From assembly GCF_008086205.1 (NCBI RefSeq), contig NZ_VSKK01000001.1, forward strand, positions 1-64,000: 64,000 nt of DNA. Direction: 5' to 3'. Source of the DNA: Bizionia myxarmorum. GTDB taxonomy: Bacteria > Bacteroidota > Bacteroidia > Flavobacteriales > Flavobacteriaceae. This document shows, piece by piece, positions 116-5,176 of this stretch. The notes under the pieces are model-generated. The model was given only the letters and a program-made list of their open reading frames with translations. It was not told the origin of the DNA and did not search any database. Each line of letters begins with the position of its first letter. Within the stretch, counting starts at the first letter, position 1. Both the position numbers and the translations under genes were made by a program.

Positions 116-320
116 CGCTAACTTAAGCCGTATATAAAAAATAGCGCGAGTTGTTGCTAACACAAAGGTTCGGGCATTTTTGGGAAGTCGCCAAATTTTT
201 AAATTTGACAAATTCCCAAAAATAAAATAATTAGTAAAATTTAAAAATTTGGCTTGTGTTTCATCCGAAAATTATCGCTTATTTTCAGCGCTACTTTTCA
301 TATACAAGACCGTTACCTGC
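116..320. repeat. attC-like hairpin 1
   Basis: The outer stem pairs 130-147 with 288-305 (16 of 18 bases). An inner stem of 17 perfectly complementary bases pairs 190-206 with 237-253. The left boundary is cgctaac (116-122) and the right boundary is gttacctgc (312-320). The cassette that owns the left boundary should begin with gttagcg, which is not in the window, so the array continues leftwards. At about 205 bp it is longer than the other two hairpins. Confidence 0.65.
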
Positions 321-788
321 CATTGAAAAACCACTCAAACGCAAGCAACACGGAATCGAAACGCTTCGGATTTTTCTCAATTATTAAACTGACTTTAAGC
401 TGATTACACTCTGCCGATTTATCACTCGAACGTACAAAACAAACCTAATTTTAGCCAATTTGCCCATTCTACTCTGCCGAAAATCATTAAAGCGGAATTT
501 ATAAACTTCACGAAAAACCAAACATAAAAAATTACTCTTTCGGTTTTCTCACTGAAACGGAATTGATAAAAGTTTGCGGATTAAAACTACCGATTTCACT
601 CAAATGCGAAAAAATAGAATGCGGAATTTAGCCAGATCCTTTGAAAACAAAAAAACAACAGCAGGTAACAACGTGTATAAAAAATGCTTACTTTAGTGCT
701 TAATCAAAAGAAAGTGCGTGTTTGGTTCTTCCGATTTTCCTTCGGAAAATCCTCGAGCACAAACCCGCACATTTCATACACAAGGACG
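313..788. other. Cassette 1, apparently non-coding
   Basis: This cassette lies between the GTT of hairpin 1 and the GTT of hairpin 2, and its last part (661-788) is hairpin 2. Reading 313-660 on both strands I find no open reading frame longer than about 20 codons from an ATG. It contains short recurring words such as gcggaattta and actctgccga. It may be a decayed cassette, a promoter or small-RNA cassette, or carry a gene too degraded to recognise. Confidence 0.55.
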
Positions 789-796
789 TTGTATGC
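661..796. repeat. attC-like hairpin 2
   Basis: The left boundary is gcaggtaac and the right boundary is gttgtatgc. The outer stem pairs gtgtataaa with the catacac side near 774-780. The middle stem pairs gtgcgtgtttg with caaacccgcac (one mismatch), and the tip is gattttcc-ttc-ggaaaatc. It is nearly the same length as hairpin 3 and clearly homologous to it along its whole length, as expected for sites recognised by one integrase. Confidence 0.72.
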
Positions 797-815
797 AATT
801 AAAAAAAACTCATCT

Positions 816-1367
816 ATGACAAGAAACCTACTTCTGATTTTAACAATTCTGACTTTCATATCGTGTGGAAATAAATCGAATGAAACTATTTATAAAACCA
901 AATCTGGCGAATATGCTTCAAAAACAGGAAATTTTATAGCTGCCTTTCCATTTGAACCAAACTACACTGCAATTGACAATCAAATGGGACTCGATAAATT
1001 CCAAATACATTTATACCGTTCGGCTTTAAATCAAAATAAAATATTCTCGATAGAATACTACGATTATCCTGAATATCTATCTAAATCTATGACTGACGAA
1101 CAACTTTATTTACAAGGAGTTACTAATTTCTCAAATAAAATGGCTGAATCGTTTAAATTAGAGTTTCAAGAAGCTATAGAGCAACACGGACTGAAAGGAC
1201 AATATTTCGTTTTAAACCTTAAAAAGAACGCTTTAGATAAAGGGATTAAAGGTCATATTCAAGGAAAAATATTTAGAAAAGGAAACCGAATTTATACAAT
1301 TACTTATGTTGGGCAAGATGACAAAAACGTGGATTCTTTTATGAAATCATTTCGTCTGATAAAATAA
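816..1367 (+). CDS. Cassette-borne lipoprotein of unknown function
   Basis: This 183-residue protein is the only gene of cassette 2. The reading frame is open upstream to 684, but that extension would translate hairpin 2. The start at 816 gives a proper lipoprotein signal: MTRN, a hydrophobic stretch, then the lipobox FISC with Cys at about residue 17. That start is 27 bases inside the cassette, a typical cassette leader, and the stop codon ends 2 bases before the cassette's terminal repeat. The mature part is polar, with a closing FMKSFRLIK motif resembling small PsbP-like or stress-related lipoproteins, but I do not recognise a named family. It is probably exported and anchored in the envelope. 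Without a visible promoter it may depend on read-through from the array. Confidence 0.8.
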   Translation: MTRNLLLILTILTFISCGNKSNETIYKTKSGEYASKTGNFIAAFPFEPNYTAIDNQMGLDKFQIHLYRSALNQNKIFSIEYYDYPEYLSKSMTDEQLYLQGVTNFSNKMAESFKLEFQEAIEQHGLKGQYFVLNLKKNALDKGIKGHIQGKIFRKGNRIYTITYVGQDDKNVDSFMKSFRLIK

Positions 1368-1369
1368 CT

Positions 1370-1507
1370 GCATACAACACTGTGTATAAAAAATGCGTAG
1401 TTTAGTTCTAAATCAAAAGGAAAGTGCGTGTTTGCTTTCATCCGATTTTCGTTCCGAAAATCCGCTGACACAAACACGCACTTTTCATACACAAAACCGT
1501 TGGCAAC
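1370..1507. repeat. attC-like hairpin 3
   Basis: The left boundary is gcatacaac and the right boundary is gttggcaac. The outer stem is gtgtataaaaaatgc with its counterpart ending catacac. The middle stem gtgcgtgtttg/caaacacgcac is perfect over 11 bases, and the tip is gattttcg-ttc-cgaaaatc. The matching terminal repeat gttgccaac expected for a third cassette is not found downstream before 2424, so the array stops or is broken just after this site. Confidence 0.72.
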
Positions 1508-2424: not shown

Positions 2425-2985
2425 TTATTCTTTGATTTTTGAAACAACCGGAAACTTAAAATCCTTCATTCCTTTCATATTAACAAACAAATTTAGATTC
2501 ATATCACTCAATAAAAACCGTTCTACCTCTATTAGATTGAATGTTTTTTTATCCTCTGTAGACGAACTATGAAAAGAATAATATGTGAAATACTCCTCAT
2601 CCATTACACGATATATATCAAACAACACCTTATCAAACTCCTTCACTAATTCTTTTGGCATGTGACCCTCAATCCTTTTTAAGGTTTTGATGTATTTATC
2701 AAGATCAACAGCGCTTTCCGTCTTATCTCTATTTATTTTTTTTGAGTAAATCCATATCATCAATTGCATAAACTCCTTTGAAAAAAGAAACGAATTGATT
2801 TCTTCTTTCACGTGTTCTGCATGGCAATAGTCTCCATTGTGAACGCGCTCCAGCAAATCTCTAACATAAGCGGACGTTGTTATGTTTTTCTCCTGTGCTT
2901 TATTCTCAATAATGCCCTTTAATTTATTGGACAACCTAAAGTTAATTGAGGGGTCATTATTCTTAATGGTTTGTTTTTTAGCCAT
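2425..2985 (-). CDS. RHH-like small DNA-binding protein (accessory)
   Basis: This 186-residue protein has a charged N-terminus, then a segment of about residues 14-48 (SINFRLSNKL through YVRDLLE) with the strand-helix-helix spacing of ribbon-helix-helix or MobC-like proteins. The remaining part is helical and not recognised. It is the last gene of the three-gene unit led by the recombinase, 18 bp after its neighbour. A role in regulating or assisting excision or mobilisation is plausible from context, but no relaxase or other conjugation gene is visible. The palindromic repeats immediately downstream may be its target. Confidence 0.6.
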   Translation of the reverse strand: MAKKQTIKNNDPSINFRLSNKLKGIIENKAQEKNITTSAYVRDLLERVHNGDYCHAEHVKEEINSFLFSKEFMQLMIWIYSKKINRDKTESAVDLDKYIKTLKRIEGHMPKELVKEFDKVLFDIYRVMDEEYFTYYSFHSSSTEDKKTFNLIEVERFLLSDMNLNLFVNMKGMKDFKFPVVSKIKE

Positions 2986-3003
2986 GCTTGTAGATTTGGG
3001 GTT

Positions 3004-3705
3004 TTATGATTTCATATTAAATACAGTTCTTAAAAGAACGTCTGTTGCTTCTTCTTCAGTGACCAGTATCTTCTTTTCTTTTTTGAGCTGCTGTGGTTTC
3101 TCGTCTTCTTCTTTGATGTTTGATTTAGTTTGAGTAATACTCGGAAATTCACCAGATGGATTCATCAAATCTTTAAAGGTTTTAAAATCCTTTTTATTTA
3201 ATACAATCTCATTGGTTTTTTTATCAATTTGGGTAATACCTACAAAGTTTTCTTGAACATAGGTCCAATGCTCTATAATTGCTTTTTGTTGCAACTGAAA
3301 TGATAAATAGGTTTCTTGCTTTAGACTTTCTATATCCTTTTGGACATTCTCAAACATCCAAATAGATATTCGTTTTATGAAATCTAATTGCGTGATATAC
3401 TTATTCAATATAAATTCGAATTGCTTCGCATCTAAATCACTTTGTAATTCAAGAAGCTTGAATGTATTTAAATCCAAACACTCCTTTTTAACCATGATAT
3501 AATGGCTTGACTGTTCATTATTCAGCAGTGCATTTGAACCATCTGGTTTGATGAGCACCACTTTATCGAATAGATTGTCATACTCCTTGTCATTCCACTT
3601 TTCTTTATCAAATTGATTCCAAATACGTCTTGGCATATAGAAAACCATTGGCACATATAAACGTTTGGTCATAGCTTCGTATATCTGATTGAATGTTTCT
3701 TTCAT
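3004..3705 (-). CDS. Hypothetical protein of the recombinase operon
   Basis: This 233-residue protein has no signal peptide or membrane segment. It is rich in aromatic and charged residues, with a helical, probably coiled segment in the middle (about 95-145) and a very charged Lys/Glu tail around residues 195-215. I recognise no family. It starts 17 bp after the recombinase stop and is followed 18 bp later by the RHH-like gene, so the three are probably co-transcribed. A link to element maintenance is inferred from position only. Confidence 0.65.
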   Translation of the reverse strand: MKETFNQIYEAMTKRLYVPMVFYMPRRIWNQFDKEKWNDKEYDNLFDKVVLIKPDGSNALLNNEQSSHYIMVKKECLDLNTFKLLELQSDLDAKQFEFILNKYITQLDFIKRISIWMFENVQKDIESLKQETYLSFQLQQKAIIEHWTYVQENFVGITQIDKKTNEIVLNKKDFKTFKDLMNPSGEFPSITQTKSNIKEEDEKPQQLKKEKKILVTEEEATDVLLRTVFNMKS

Positions 3706-3722
3706 TATATTTCTATTTGGAA

Positions 3723-5048
3723 TTATAACATGTGTGAATAATCTTCTGGCAATTCAGCATCTATATCTCGCAAGTATTTTTCTAGTGCTGACATAGACGT
3801 ATGTCCTGTAATAAGCATTAATTTACTTTTAGCTTCAAAGGGTGAGGATTCTTTTACCAAATGTCTGTATAATTTAGTGATATACGTGTGTCTAAAACTA
3901 TATAGACCATAATCACTACTTAATCCAAAATGGTCTTTTACAACGCGTTTAAATCGCTTGGAATAATAGTTCCGCTTATTCTCCAAATCGGTATCCCACT
4001 CCGCTCCTATGGCGTCTGGCGTAAACAGTGAATCTCTTTTCTTTAATTTAGAAAGGTCGGGTAATTCCTTTATTAGTAGATCAGGAATTATCTTGGTTTT
4101 CATCGGACTGTTTTTCGCCTGAAACTTAATCGTTTTATTTTTTAAGTCGATGTCCCCTACTTTAAGTCGGCAGACTTCTATAGGTCTTAAAAAATTATAG
4201 GAAATAAATTTAATGAACAATAACAGGTTGGTATCTTCCTTTTCCAAATACTCAAAGATTTCTTCCTGCTTATCTTGGGTATAGGTTTTATTACGTTTGG
4301 GTATGGCTTTTAATACAGGGATTTGTTTAATGATATTAGTCTGTATAATATCATTATCAAACAAAACTTGCATGATACTTCCTAAATCTGTTCTGAAATT
4401 ATTTCTATTTCTTGGACTGGTTCTTTCTAACGTATCACTTAAAAATCCTGAAACTACTTTTTTGTCAATTTCATGGATTCCTTCAATTTTAGGATGCGTT
4501 TCTTCTACCCATTTGATAAAGTTCTTTAATCTGTTTTCGAAACTGCGTCTGGTAGTGTCGTTTATTAGCTTCTCTTTCTGTTTTAAACCAAAAGCGAACG
4601 CTTCTTGATAAGGCATGCTGGAAACTTCAACTGGAGCTGTATTTTCCCTTTCAACTACTTTCGTCTTTAAGGTAATTGGTTCTTGTTTGGCTTTTGAAGA
4701 AGCTGTCTTTATATTTTCGTTCAGACTTGAATAAACGGCTTTATTATCTGAATAGGGACTGTATCCTTTCTTAAGGAGTTTAATTAATGCCTTTCTATAG
4801 GTGACTAAAACGGAAAGTCTATCTTCTTTGGTTTTATATTTATTGGCATTAGCGTATACGGGCGTTTGCCTTTTAAGCTTCCCAGAGTTTGGGTCTCGAT
4901 AAGAAAAGTAGATGTACCAACGCTTCGTTAAATCGCCATTGGCTGAATAAATTTTGGGGGCGGAAAAGTTTTTTTTCAAATGTAAATCGTATTCACTTTC
5001 GTATTCATTTTGCAATTCGCCTGCAAGATAATCAAAAATTGTATGCAT
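3723..5048 (-). CDS. Tyrosine recombinase / integrase
   Basis: This 441-residue site-specific recombinase has an N-terminal arm-binding-like region, a core-binding SAM-like domain around 150-245, and a catalytic domain from about 260. Visible catalytic motifs are the first Arg in NFLRPIEVCRL, the box YSFRHTY (Tyr in place of the first His, common in Bacteroidota enzymes), the GHTSMSALEKY segment with the late His, and the nucleophile Tyr in EKYLR. It probably integrates and excises the island at the adjacent tRNA-fMet. It is not an IntI-type integron integrase, since I see no IntI-specific extra helix. Its ATG directly follows the poly-T of the tRNA terminator, leaving almost no room for a promoter of its own. 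Confidence 0.88.
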   Translation of the reverse strand: MHTIFDYLAGELQNEYESEYDLHLKKNFSAPKIYSANGDLTKRWYIYFSYRDPNSGKLKRQTPVYANANKYKTKEDRLSVLVTYRKALIKLLKKGYSPYSDNKAVYSSLNENIKTASSKAKQEPITLKTKVVERENTAPVEVSSMPYQEAFAFGLKQKEKLINDTTRRSFENRLKNFIKWVEETHPKIEGIHEIDKKVVSGFLSDTLERTSPRNRNNFRTDLGSIMQVLFDNDIIQTNIIKQIPVLKAIPKRNKTYTQDKQEEIFEYLEKEDTNLLLFIKFISYNFLRPIEVCRLKVGDIDLKNKTIKFQAKNSPMKTKIIPDLLIKELPDLSKLKKRDSLFTPDAIGAEWDTDLENKRNYYSKRFKRVVKDHFGLSSDYGLYSFRHTYITKLYRHLVKESSPFEAKSKLMLITGHTSMSALEKYLRDIDAELPEDYSHML

Positions 5049-5077
5049 AAAAAAACGGTTTGACGAAAGCCAAACCG
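5049..5077 (-). terminator. tRNA-fMet terminator abutting the integrase start
   Basis: Read on the minus strand, a 7-bp stem cggtttg/caaaccg with an 8-base loop is followed by seven T residues that end exactly at the integrase ATG. It terminates tRNA transcription, and read-through would feed the recombinase gene. Confidence 0.7.
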
Positions 5078-5103
5078 CTGTTTTTAGTACGATTCAAATT
5101 TAG

Positions 5104-5176
<73 letters not shown>

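Follow-up and report, generated by a model that had tools for sequence, protein, structure and literature searches.

A probable integron gene-cassette array at a contig start of Bizionia myxarmorum and a tyrosine recombinase without the IntI additional domain

The start of a Bizionia myxarmorum contig carries hairpins whose outer bases pair across the intervening genes. The locus raises the question of whether these units are the gene cassettes of an integron and, if so, which recombinase serves them. The window analysed here is the whole stretch of 64,000 nucleotides that begins at base 1 of the contig (contig C5 of genome G000; G000:C5:1-64000). A sequence-only reading had proposed integron-type cassettes of a divergent Bacteroidota family, and this proposal is supported by an integrase gene, by linked arrays in relatives, and by cassettes that have moved with sharp boundaries. 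From sequence comparison, we consider it very probable (about 0.9) that the region is the end of an integron gene-cassette array served by a patch-less tyrosine recombinase, that is, one without the additional domain of IntI.

Hairpins and cassettes at the contig start

Direct reading of the window confirmed the hairpins and the complementarity of the cassette ends. In the first pair of ends, GTTACCTGC (312-320) is the exact reverse complement of GCAGGTAAC (661-669); in the second, GTTGTATGC (788-796) pairs with GCATACAAC (1370-1378) and the match extends to 10 bases. Three related hairpins had been claimed. Two of them are full attC-like sites (667-790 and 1376-1501), and the first (about 120-314) is degenerate. 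The array features from position 1 to 1512 are given on the forward strand. Positions 1-119 are probably, to judge from position alone, what is left of an earlier cassette truncated at the contig start. attC 1 (120-314) has a degenerate 5' arm and falls in the class of about 190 b; the model matches it at 126-314 on the minus (bottom) strand with 48.8 bits. The AAC at its left edge (120-122) leaves a 7-base spacer against the usual 2-3 bases, so the partner GTTAGCG predicted by the sequence-only reading is doubtful.

Cassette 1 with its attC runs from the GTT at 312 to the base before the next GTT (312-787; ends GTTACCTGC and GCAGGTAAC), and no internal ORF of at least 60 aa appears for it in the ORF list of the window. 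The site that closes it, attC 2 (667-790, 124 b from AAC to GTT), scores 95.9 bits with the covariance model. Cassette 2 with its attC (788-1498; ends GTTGTATGCA and TGCATACAAC) contains an ORF of 183 aa (816-1367), counted from the first ATG past attC 2 and in frame with a listed ORF (684-1367) that begins inside attC 2 and extends into this cassette. The 183-aa protein has a lipoprotein-like start (LTFISC, read by eye) and matched 0 Pfam families. attC 3 (1376-1501, 126 b from AAC to GTT) scores 96.8 bits; both this site and attC 2 are among the 45 sites used to build the model. Rfam gave nothing at the hairpins under its gathering scores. Folding of the bottom strand, a check suggested along with the original claim, was more stable than that of the top strand for all three hairpins: -33.3 vs -29.7 for attC 1, -20.3 vs -16.9 kcal/mol (DNA parameters) for attC 2, and -26.1 vs -22.9 for attC 3.

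A third cassette starts at 1499-1512 (GTTGGCAACCATTG) and its closing site is missing: neither GGTTGCCAAC nor GTTGCCAAC was found within the first 20 kb, so the array breaks off here. Complete cassettes with the same start are present on contigs C1 and C8 of this genome. No integrase of the patch-less family was found nearby on contig C5; this, the one degenerate site, and the broken last cassette indicate that the window piece may be a remnant.

Two side observations concern the DNA next to the break. At 1511-1530 the broken cassette continues into TGTGACCCGTCCTGA, which may be an insertion-element end; three short pieces of it have no inverted copy within the window. Positions 2425-5176 encode a NikA-like protein (below its Pfam cut-off), an unknown protein, and a 441-aa tyrosine recombinase; these genes end beside a tRNA gene (5104-5176), resembling an integrated mobile element that adjoins the broken array end.

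Complementary ends, array heads, and moved cassettes

The covariance model was built from an alignment of 45 sites, which is without attC of the classes of about 60, 162, and 188 b and in which one row (L048:11425-11541 of alignment A2) was kept although 6 bases short. The model ends at AAC and GTT and excludes the bases outside. A search with one hairpin gave 16 matches in G000, including some to a site's reverse arm, and was positive in 23 of 60 genomes, G000 among them. The model (E <=0.001, at most 150 candidates scored per genome) gave at least 31 sites in G000 and from at least 12 to at least 109 in six relatives. The bases outside the sites were then compared for 169 of 180 model hits in stretches of G000, G006, G014, G024, G025, and G101; five hits in L054, four in L062, L053:19775, and L055:4157 were left out, and three of the 169 hairpins are rows of the model itself (two in the window and one in L048). 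Hairpins were taken as adjacent if less than 4 kb apart. Complementarity of at least 6 bases beyond GTT/AAC was found in 136 of 151 adjacent pairs and in only 505 of 28,036 non-adjacent pairs. The claim that pairing across a gene exceeds chance therefore held, and a reading of the hairpins as terminators or repeats was rejected on this test. Four of the 15 failing adjacent pairs reach 5 bases and eleven fewer; some are off by one base and others have unrelated ends.

Position +8 after GTT is occupied by A in 164 of 167 sites located with the model and in 171 of 172 linked sites. The script used for scanning had been developed on these same sites, and the sites behind the model had originally been picked out through their linked ends; as a control, a classical Vibrio array was detected with the same script and threshold (10 linked sites, not individually inspected). 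The stretches of G014 and G101 hold dozens of cassettes: in G014, 47 cassette pairs and 38 linked attCs lie in 52 kb and another 53 and 42 in 50 kb, and in G101, 38 pairs and 29 linked attCs lie in 47 kb. Tandem cassettes bounded by attC hairpins and running in a single direction are thus present, as in an integron.

The sequence-only reading had suggested a look for an integrase gene, and the lack of further sites and of an integrase in this or related genomes would have counted against it; neither was lacking. Contig C14 of G000 carries a gene for a 375-residue recombinase (219362-220489), 1.6 kb from the contig end, followed by a short, attI-like palindrome and an array of the same type with three hairpin-closed cassettes (ends GTTAGCACCA...TGGTGCTAAC, GTTAGCGAAC...GTTCGCTAAC, and GTTACCTACA...TGTAGGTAAC). 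At E <=1e-50, the family profile matches this recombinase and nothing else among the G000 candidates scored (6 of 15); its frame is open and its catalytic residues are conserved. The array family could be a true integron that is inactive in G000, the window piece being a decayed, CALIN-like remnant. We regard this as unlikely; it would be compatible with the main explanation and limit it. In its favour, attC 1 is degenerate, the last cassette is unclosed, and the integrase lies on another contig, but that integrase is intact and heads an attI-like site and three complete cassettes, and the contig break hides a possible junction of the window piece with the C14 array.

Ten aligned integrases were used as the query, and the best 80 of at least 552 stretches encoding a relative were analysed. 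By title, these best 80 loci belong mostly to Flavobacteriaceae genera, with a Crocinitomicaceae MAG, Brumimicrobium, and a few unnamed Bacteroidetes. At least 1200 b follow the integrase at 58 of the 80 loci, where a cassette pair was found downstream in 49 and a linked attC in 39 (9 and 19 loci, respectively, had none). Upstream of the same integrases, a cassette pair was found in 19 of 57, the level of chance, and a linked attC in 1 of 57; in total, 199 cassette pairs lie in 286 kb downstream vs 26 in 276 kb upstream. The other 22 loci have less than 1200 b of contig left, as expected if arrays break assemblies. The first partnered cassette starts 35-194 b past the integrase stop codon (median 44; 59 of 80 loci). 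The 40 b preceding its GTT contain a perfect inverted repeat of at least 6 in 52 of 59 cases, 48 of which end at most 9 b from the GTT; such a repeat is present in 9 of 59 control stretches taken from within cassettes and in 16 of 59 shuffled ones. We call this palindrome the putative attI on account of its position, its symmetry, and the start of the first cassette; it resembles a short attC. A recombinase gene and a candidate attI would thus head the array, as in an integron.

In a survey of 296 genomes of the phylum, at least 31 have a match that begins within the first 20 profile positions; among the matches listed, 10 of these genomes are of the same family as the window, 9 of the same class, and 12 from elsewhere in the phylum. 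The survey figure of 200 of 296 should not be taken for the size of the patch-less family, since it includes Xer-like partial matches. Among 30 survey loci, where the downstream sequence mostly spans about 1.4 kb, the first cassette is partner-confirmed in 17 (8 in the same family, G000 included, 4 in the same class, and 5 elsewhere); 10 have the start motif alone, and 3 have neither. In four of the five confirmed loci outside the class, the genome also carries a canonical IntI, so the arrays there may be shared. One near full-length integrase relative (42% identity over 98%) is located on a large plasmid of Persicobacter (L179, CP012862.1), with no partner-confirmed cassette in the first 8 kb downstream.

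A rival reading is an ordinary integron, in which a canonical IntI with its additional domain serves the arrays and the adjacent recombinase is a bystander. A classical array also has end complementarity and hairpins, and among the candidates scored per genome a canonical IntI is above the cut-off in 84 of 296 phylum genomes, some of them also with the patch-less kind. However, none of these 84 belongs to the window's family or order and one belongs to its class, and 0 of 100 genomes of the family exceed the TIGR02249 cut-off (again among the candidates scored), which largely refutes the reading there. The gene preceding the arrays is the patch-less one. We consider this reading highly improbable.

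Evidence for the movement of cassettes came from a comparison of 452 cassettes, which gave 93 full-length pairs, 86 of them reaching both ends and 15 of the 93 between genomes or loci. A cassette of 437 b is present in 11 copies on C1 of G014, in two arrays and with differing neighbours. Another, of 448 b, is 100% identical, attC included, in G101 and Xanthomarina sp. F2636L, and the sequences just outside it are unrelated; on the closing side the identity ends one base past the GTT, and on the opening side 13 b ahead of the GTT, within the shared L' box. This cassette occurs in two genomes, apparently of two species. Transfer between genera was rejected as an interpretation: a neighbouring gene of the Xanthomarina array has 90% identity in G101, so the two may be one genus. 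One of the 15 pairs between genomes or loci, L074/L081 at 8039/8040, was false; it precedes the integrase, its flanks are alike, and it has no attC. Comparison of these copies points to the mobility of single cassettes at a fixed point, again as in integrons.

REP or MITE-like repeats, palindromes that a transposase spreads and that flank genes by accident, would account for similar hairpins across many contigs. They do not predict the complementarity of neighbouring ends, the fixed orientation, the integrase at the head, or identical whole cassettes, and are in our view very improbable. The array structure, the integrase linkage, the one-way ORFs, and the identical moved cassette argue instead for a system that works like an integron.

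The cassettes of G014 and G101 contain an ORF of at least 60 aa in 99 of 115 cases (one counted twice); 97 of the 99 ORFs run in the array direction, with a median of 93% of the cassette. A scan of 95 proteins (94 from these cassettes and the one of the window) gave matches that include families of WapI-like immunity proteins, ParE, cation efflux, and short-chain dehydrogenases. Defence homologues in cassettes of L049-L057 (G014, G101) are HamB (E 4e-244) and PtuA (E 3e-122), one each. Small cassettes (about 211-360 b) without a clear ORF were also seen in G000 and G101 (window 312-666, L067 and L066, and L048 11539-11827). They share motifs such as GATTTATCACTGTT and may be regulatory.

The recombinase and the folded sites

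The spacing between the motifs around two catalytic arginines is 90-95 residues in 37 of 37 family members; it is 90-97 in XerA, Xer, and other rows, and 132-133 in canonical IntI (5 of 5 measured, a set that does not include nine further IntI of the tree). A segment of about 42 residues, the one that carries the additional domain in IntI, is missing from the patch-less integrase, which in this respect is not an IntI. In agreement, four members are matched by the IntI family model in two separate stretches, the two IntI-model pieces of the genome survey omit about positions 180-240, and 2a3v aligns to the integrase in two pieces. R235, K260, H324, R327, H350, and Y359, which we take to be the catalytic tyrosine-recombinase residues, are invariant in the aligned integrases. 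The best NCBIfam match of four members is NF040815, with 241.8 bits in the window's genome (cut-off 220) and 205.6-215.4 in the other three, and the best PDB matches are archaeal XerA. The integrase has about 105 extra N-terminal residues. Sequence searches with this domain returned nothing firm; by prediction, it may have a fold like that of the XPB-DRD, HARP, and UvsW N-terminal domains.

In a tree of 59 rows, 14 IntI lie on one side of a branch (100/99) and the patch-less proteins fall outside this clade; L195, one of twelve IntI loci, has no frame and was omitted. IntI, the patch-less rows, and four others group apart from XerA and Xer (99/97). The tree, which has 3 changes and long branches, does not establish the patch-less rows as a single clade; they may still have one origin. 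The sequence-only reading had based the divergence of the family on the site consensus. It goes deeper, because the integrase has no IntI-specific domain.

The sites themselves are asymmetric. With DNA parameters, the bottom strand is more stable in 286 of 306 attCs (273 of 291 unique), whereas among classical Vibrio attCs it is so in 4 of 11. The outer 16 pairs of the top strand include 649 A.C vs 41 G.T, and each such A.C corresponds to a G.T pair in the bottom-strand fold. G.U occupies two columns of the stem, in 43 and 34 of 45 sites, respectively, and the stem covaries, with both-side changes in 13 of 16 pairs. As a control, 118 non-attC hairpins upstream of integrases were folded, of which 50 favour the bottom strand and 65 the top (A.C vs G.T 73:219). 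The bias runs against the site-finding script, since the script rewards top-strand G.T. Similar changes would also result if deamination acted preferentially on an exposed bottom strand, but columns fixed in 43 of 45 sites are hardly expected from it.

Extrahelical bases are named as common to all known attC in the accessible part of one source (PMC2727003). In the insertion column of the 16-pair stem here, a base is present in 10 of 45 sites and none in 35 (two poorly aligned there), so the extrahelical bases that mark the bottom-strand L stem of a classical attC are mostly lacking. Given the bottom-strand G.T bias and these 35 sites, strand choice may rest on wobble pairs. The unpaired central spacers are unequal, as in classical attC, the combination of 3 and 6 bases being commonest (83 of 134 sites in one set and 58 of 172 in another). 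The classical attC consensus is RYYYAAC / GTTRRRY. Beyond AAC/GTT the boundaries depart from it, as had been noticed from the window, with GTTRRRY in 6 of 172 sites and RYYYAAC in 9 of 172. The R-box consensus was dropped as a discriminator, since 10 of 11 classical Vibrio sites fail GTTRRRY too. By length, the attC cores group at about 60, 125, 162, and 188 b, a pattern that stepwise changes in the terminal loop would give.

Proposed mechanism and comparison with known systems

The region is most likely the end of an array that belongs to a cassette integron system present in several classes of Bacteroidota. The tyrosine recombinase, about 375 residues long, has its gene immediately before the array and pointing into it, and would most likely join the folded bottom-strand attC hairpins at GTT to attI or to each other, attI presumably being the short palindrome just past the integrase stop codon. 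Circular cassettes, each a gene with its attC, would be inserted, excised, and shuffled. The recombination chemistry, the use of the bottom strand, and the crossover (G^TT as in classical integrons) are assumed, and the N-terminal domain and the wobble pairs may replace the roles of the IntI additional domain and the extrahelical bases. By anatomy and signs of cassette movement, the system is an integron as judged from sequence; by the defining domain, it is not of the IntI family. It is a variant with an origin possibly separate from that of IntI. More tentatively, and with somewhat less than even confidence, we suggest a second, separately evolved integron, in which a XerA-like recombinase of Bacteroidota, without the IntI additional domain, turned into a recombinase of single-strand cassettes by gaining an N-terminal junction-binding domain (XPB-DRD/HARP-like), and in which attC sets strand choice thermodynamically, with conserved bottom-strand G.T pairs (A.C on the top) replacing the extrahelical bases.

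A literature search, with subscription journals and preprints outside its scope, returned no account of a patch-less integrase or its arrays in the text available. The accessible parts of two papers give the additional domain as the basis on which integron integrases are recognised (PMC8352920, PMC9668308); integrase searches that rest on this domain (PMC8352920) would miss the patch-less integrase by design, and the missing domain may be the reason why such Flavobacteriaceae arrays have hardly been noticed. According to the IntegronFinder 2.0 paper, Bacteroidetes were previously credited with In0 only, integrases that have no cassettes, and one complete integron is reported there, in Salinibacter ruber (PMC9024848). 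If arrays of dozens of cassettes, some with defence homologues, follow a patch-less integrase in many Flavobacteriaceae, a large store of mobile genes has been overlooked. Whether a Xer-like enzyme became able to act on folded single strands by acquiring the I2 domain is an open question raised in another paper (PMC4792948). A natural system that seems to manage without I2, and mostly without extrahelical bases, makes this question testable by comparison.

Among related enzymes, the simple tyrosine recombinases XerA, XerC, and XerD share the catalytic core; the integrase here differs in its extra N-terminal domain and in the attI-like site and array that follow it. The integrases of the Treponema chromosomal integrons differ from it in that they are called IntI and probably carry the additional domain. 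According to the part of the description available, intI is transcribed in these integrons towards attI, along the cassette direction (PMC3607928), an arrangement that is shared. In an 'Integron-like' subgroup of YRs, the CAT insertion is not fully conserved, and the patch-less members may therefore belong to it; the accessible text calls the insertion essential for integron function and reports no patch-less members with arrays (PMC8138268).

A case from the same order is Riemerella anatipestifer (Flavobacteriales), in which, according to the available sections of a 2026 paper, aph(3')-IVb, flanked by 27 bp upstream and 140 bp downstream, enters a specific site independently of homology, and the 140 bp were found to fold like attC (PMC13148043). 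Those sections name neither a recombinase nor an array, and VRprofile2 gave no integron near the site (PMC13148043). The inserted unit, as described there, has the size and shape of the cassettes here. By this analogy, the insertion may be linked to the patch-less cassette system, and such arrays may explain the homology-independent gene uptake in Riemerella (PMC13148043).

The classical integrons (Vibrio superintegron, class 1) differ in that their IntI has the additional domain, is without the extra ~105 N-terminal residues, and forms a separate clade. They share with the arrays described here an integrase with an adjoining attI and a long one-way array, a hairpin attC with unequal spacers and a GTT boundary, complementary cassette ends, and the mobility of whole cassettes.
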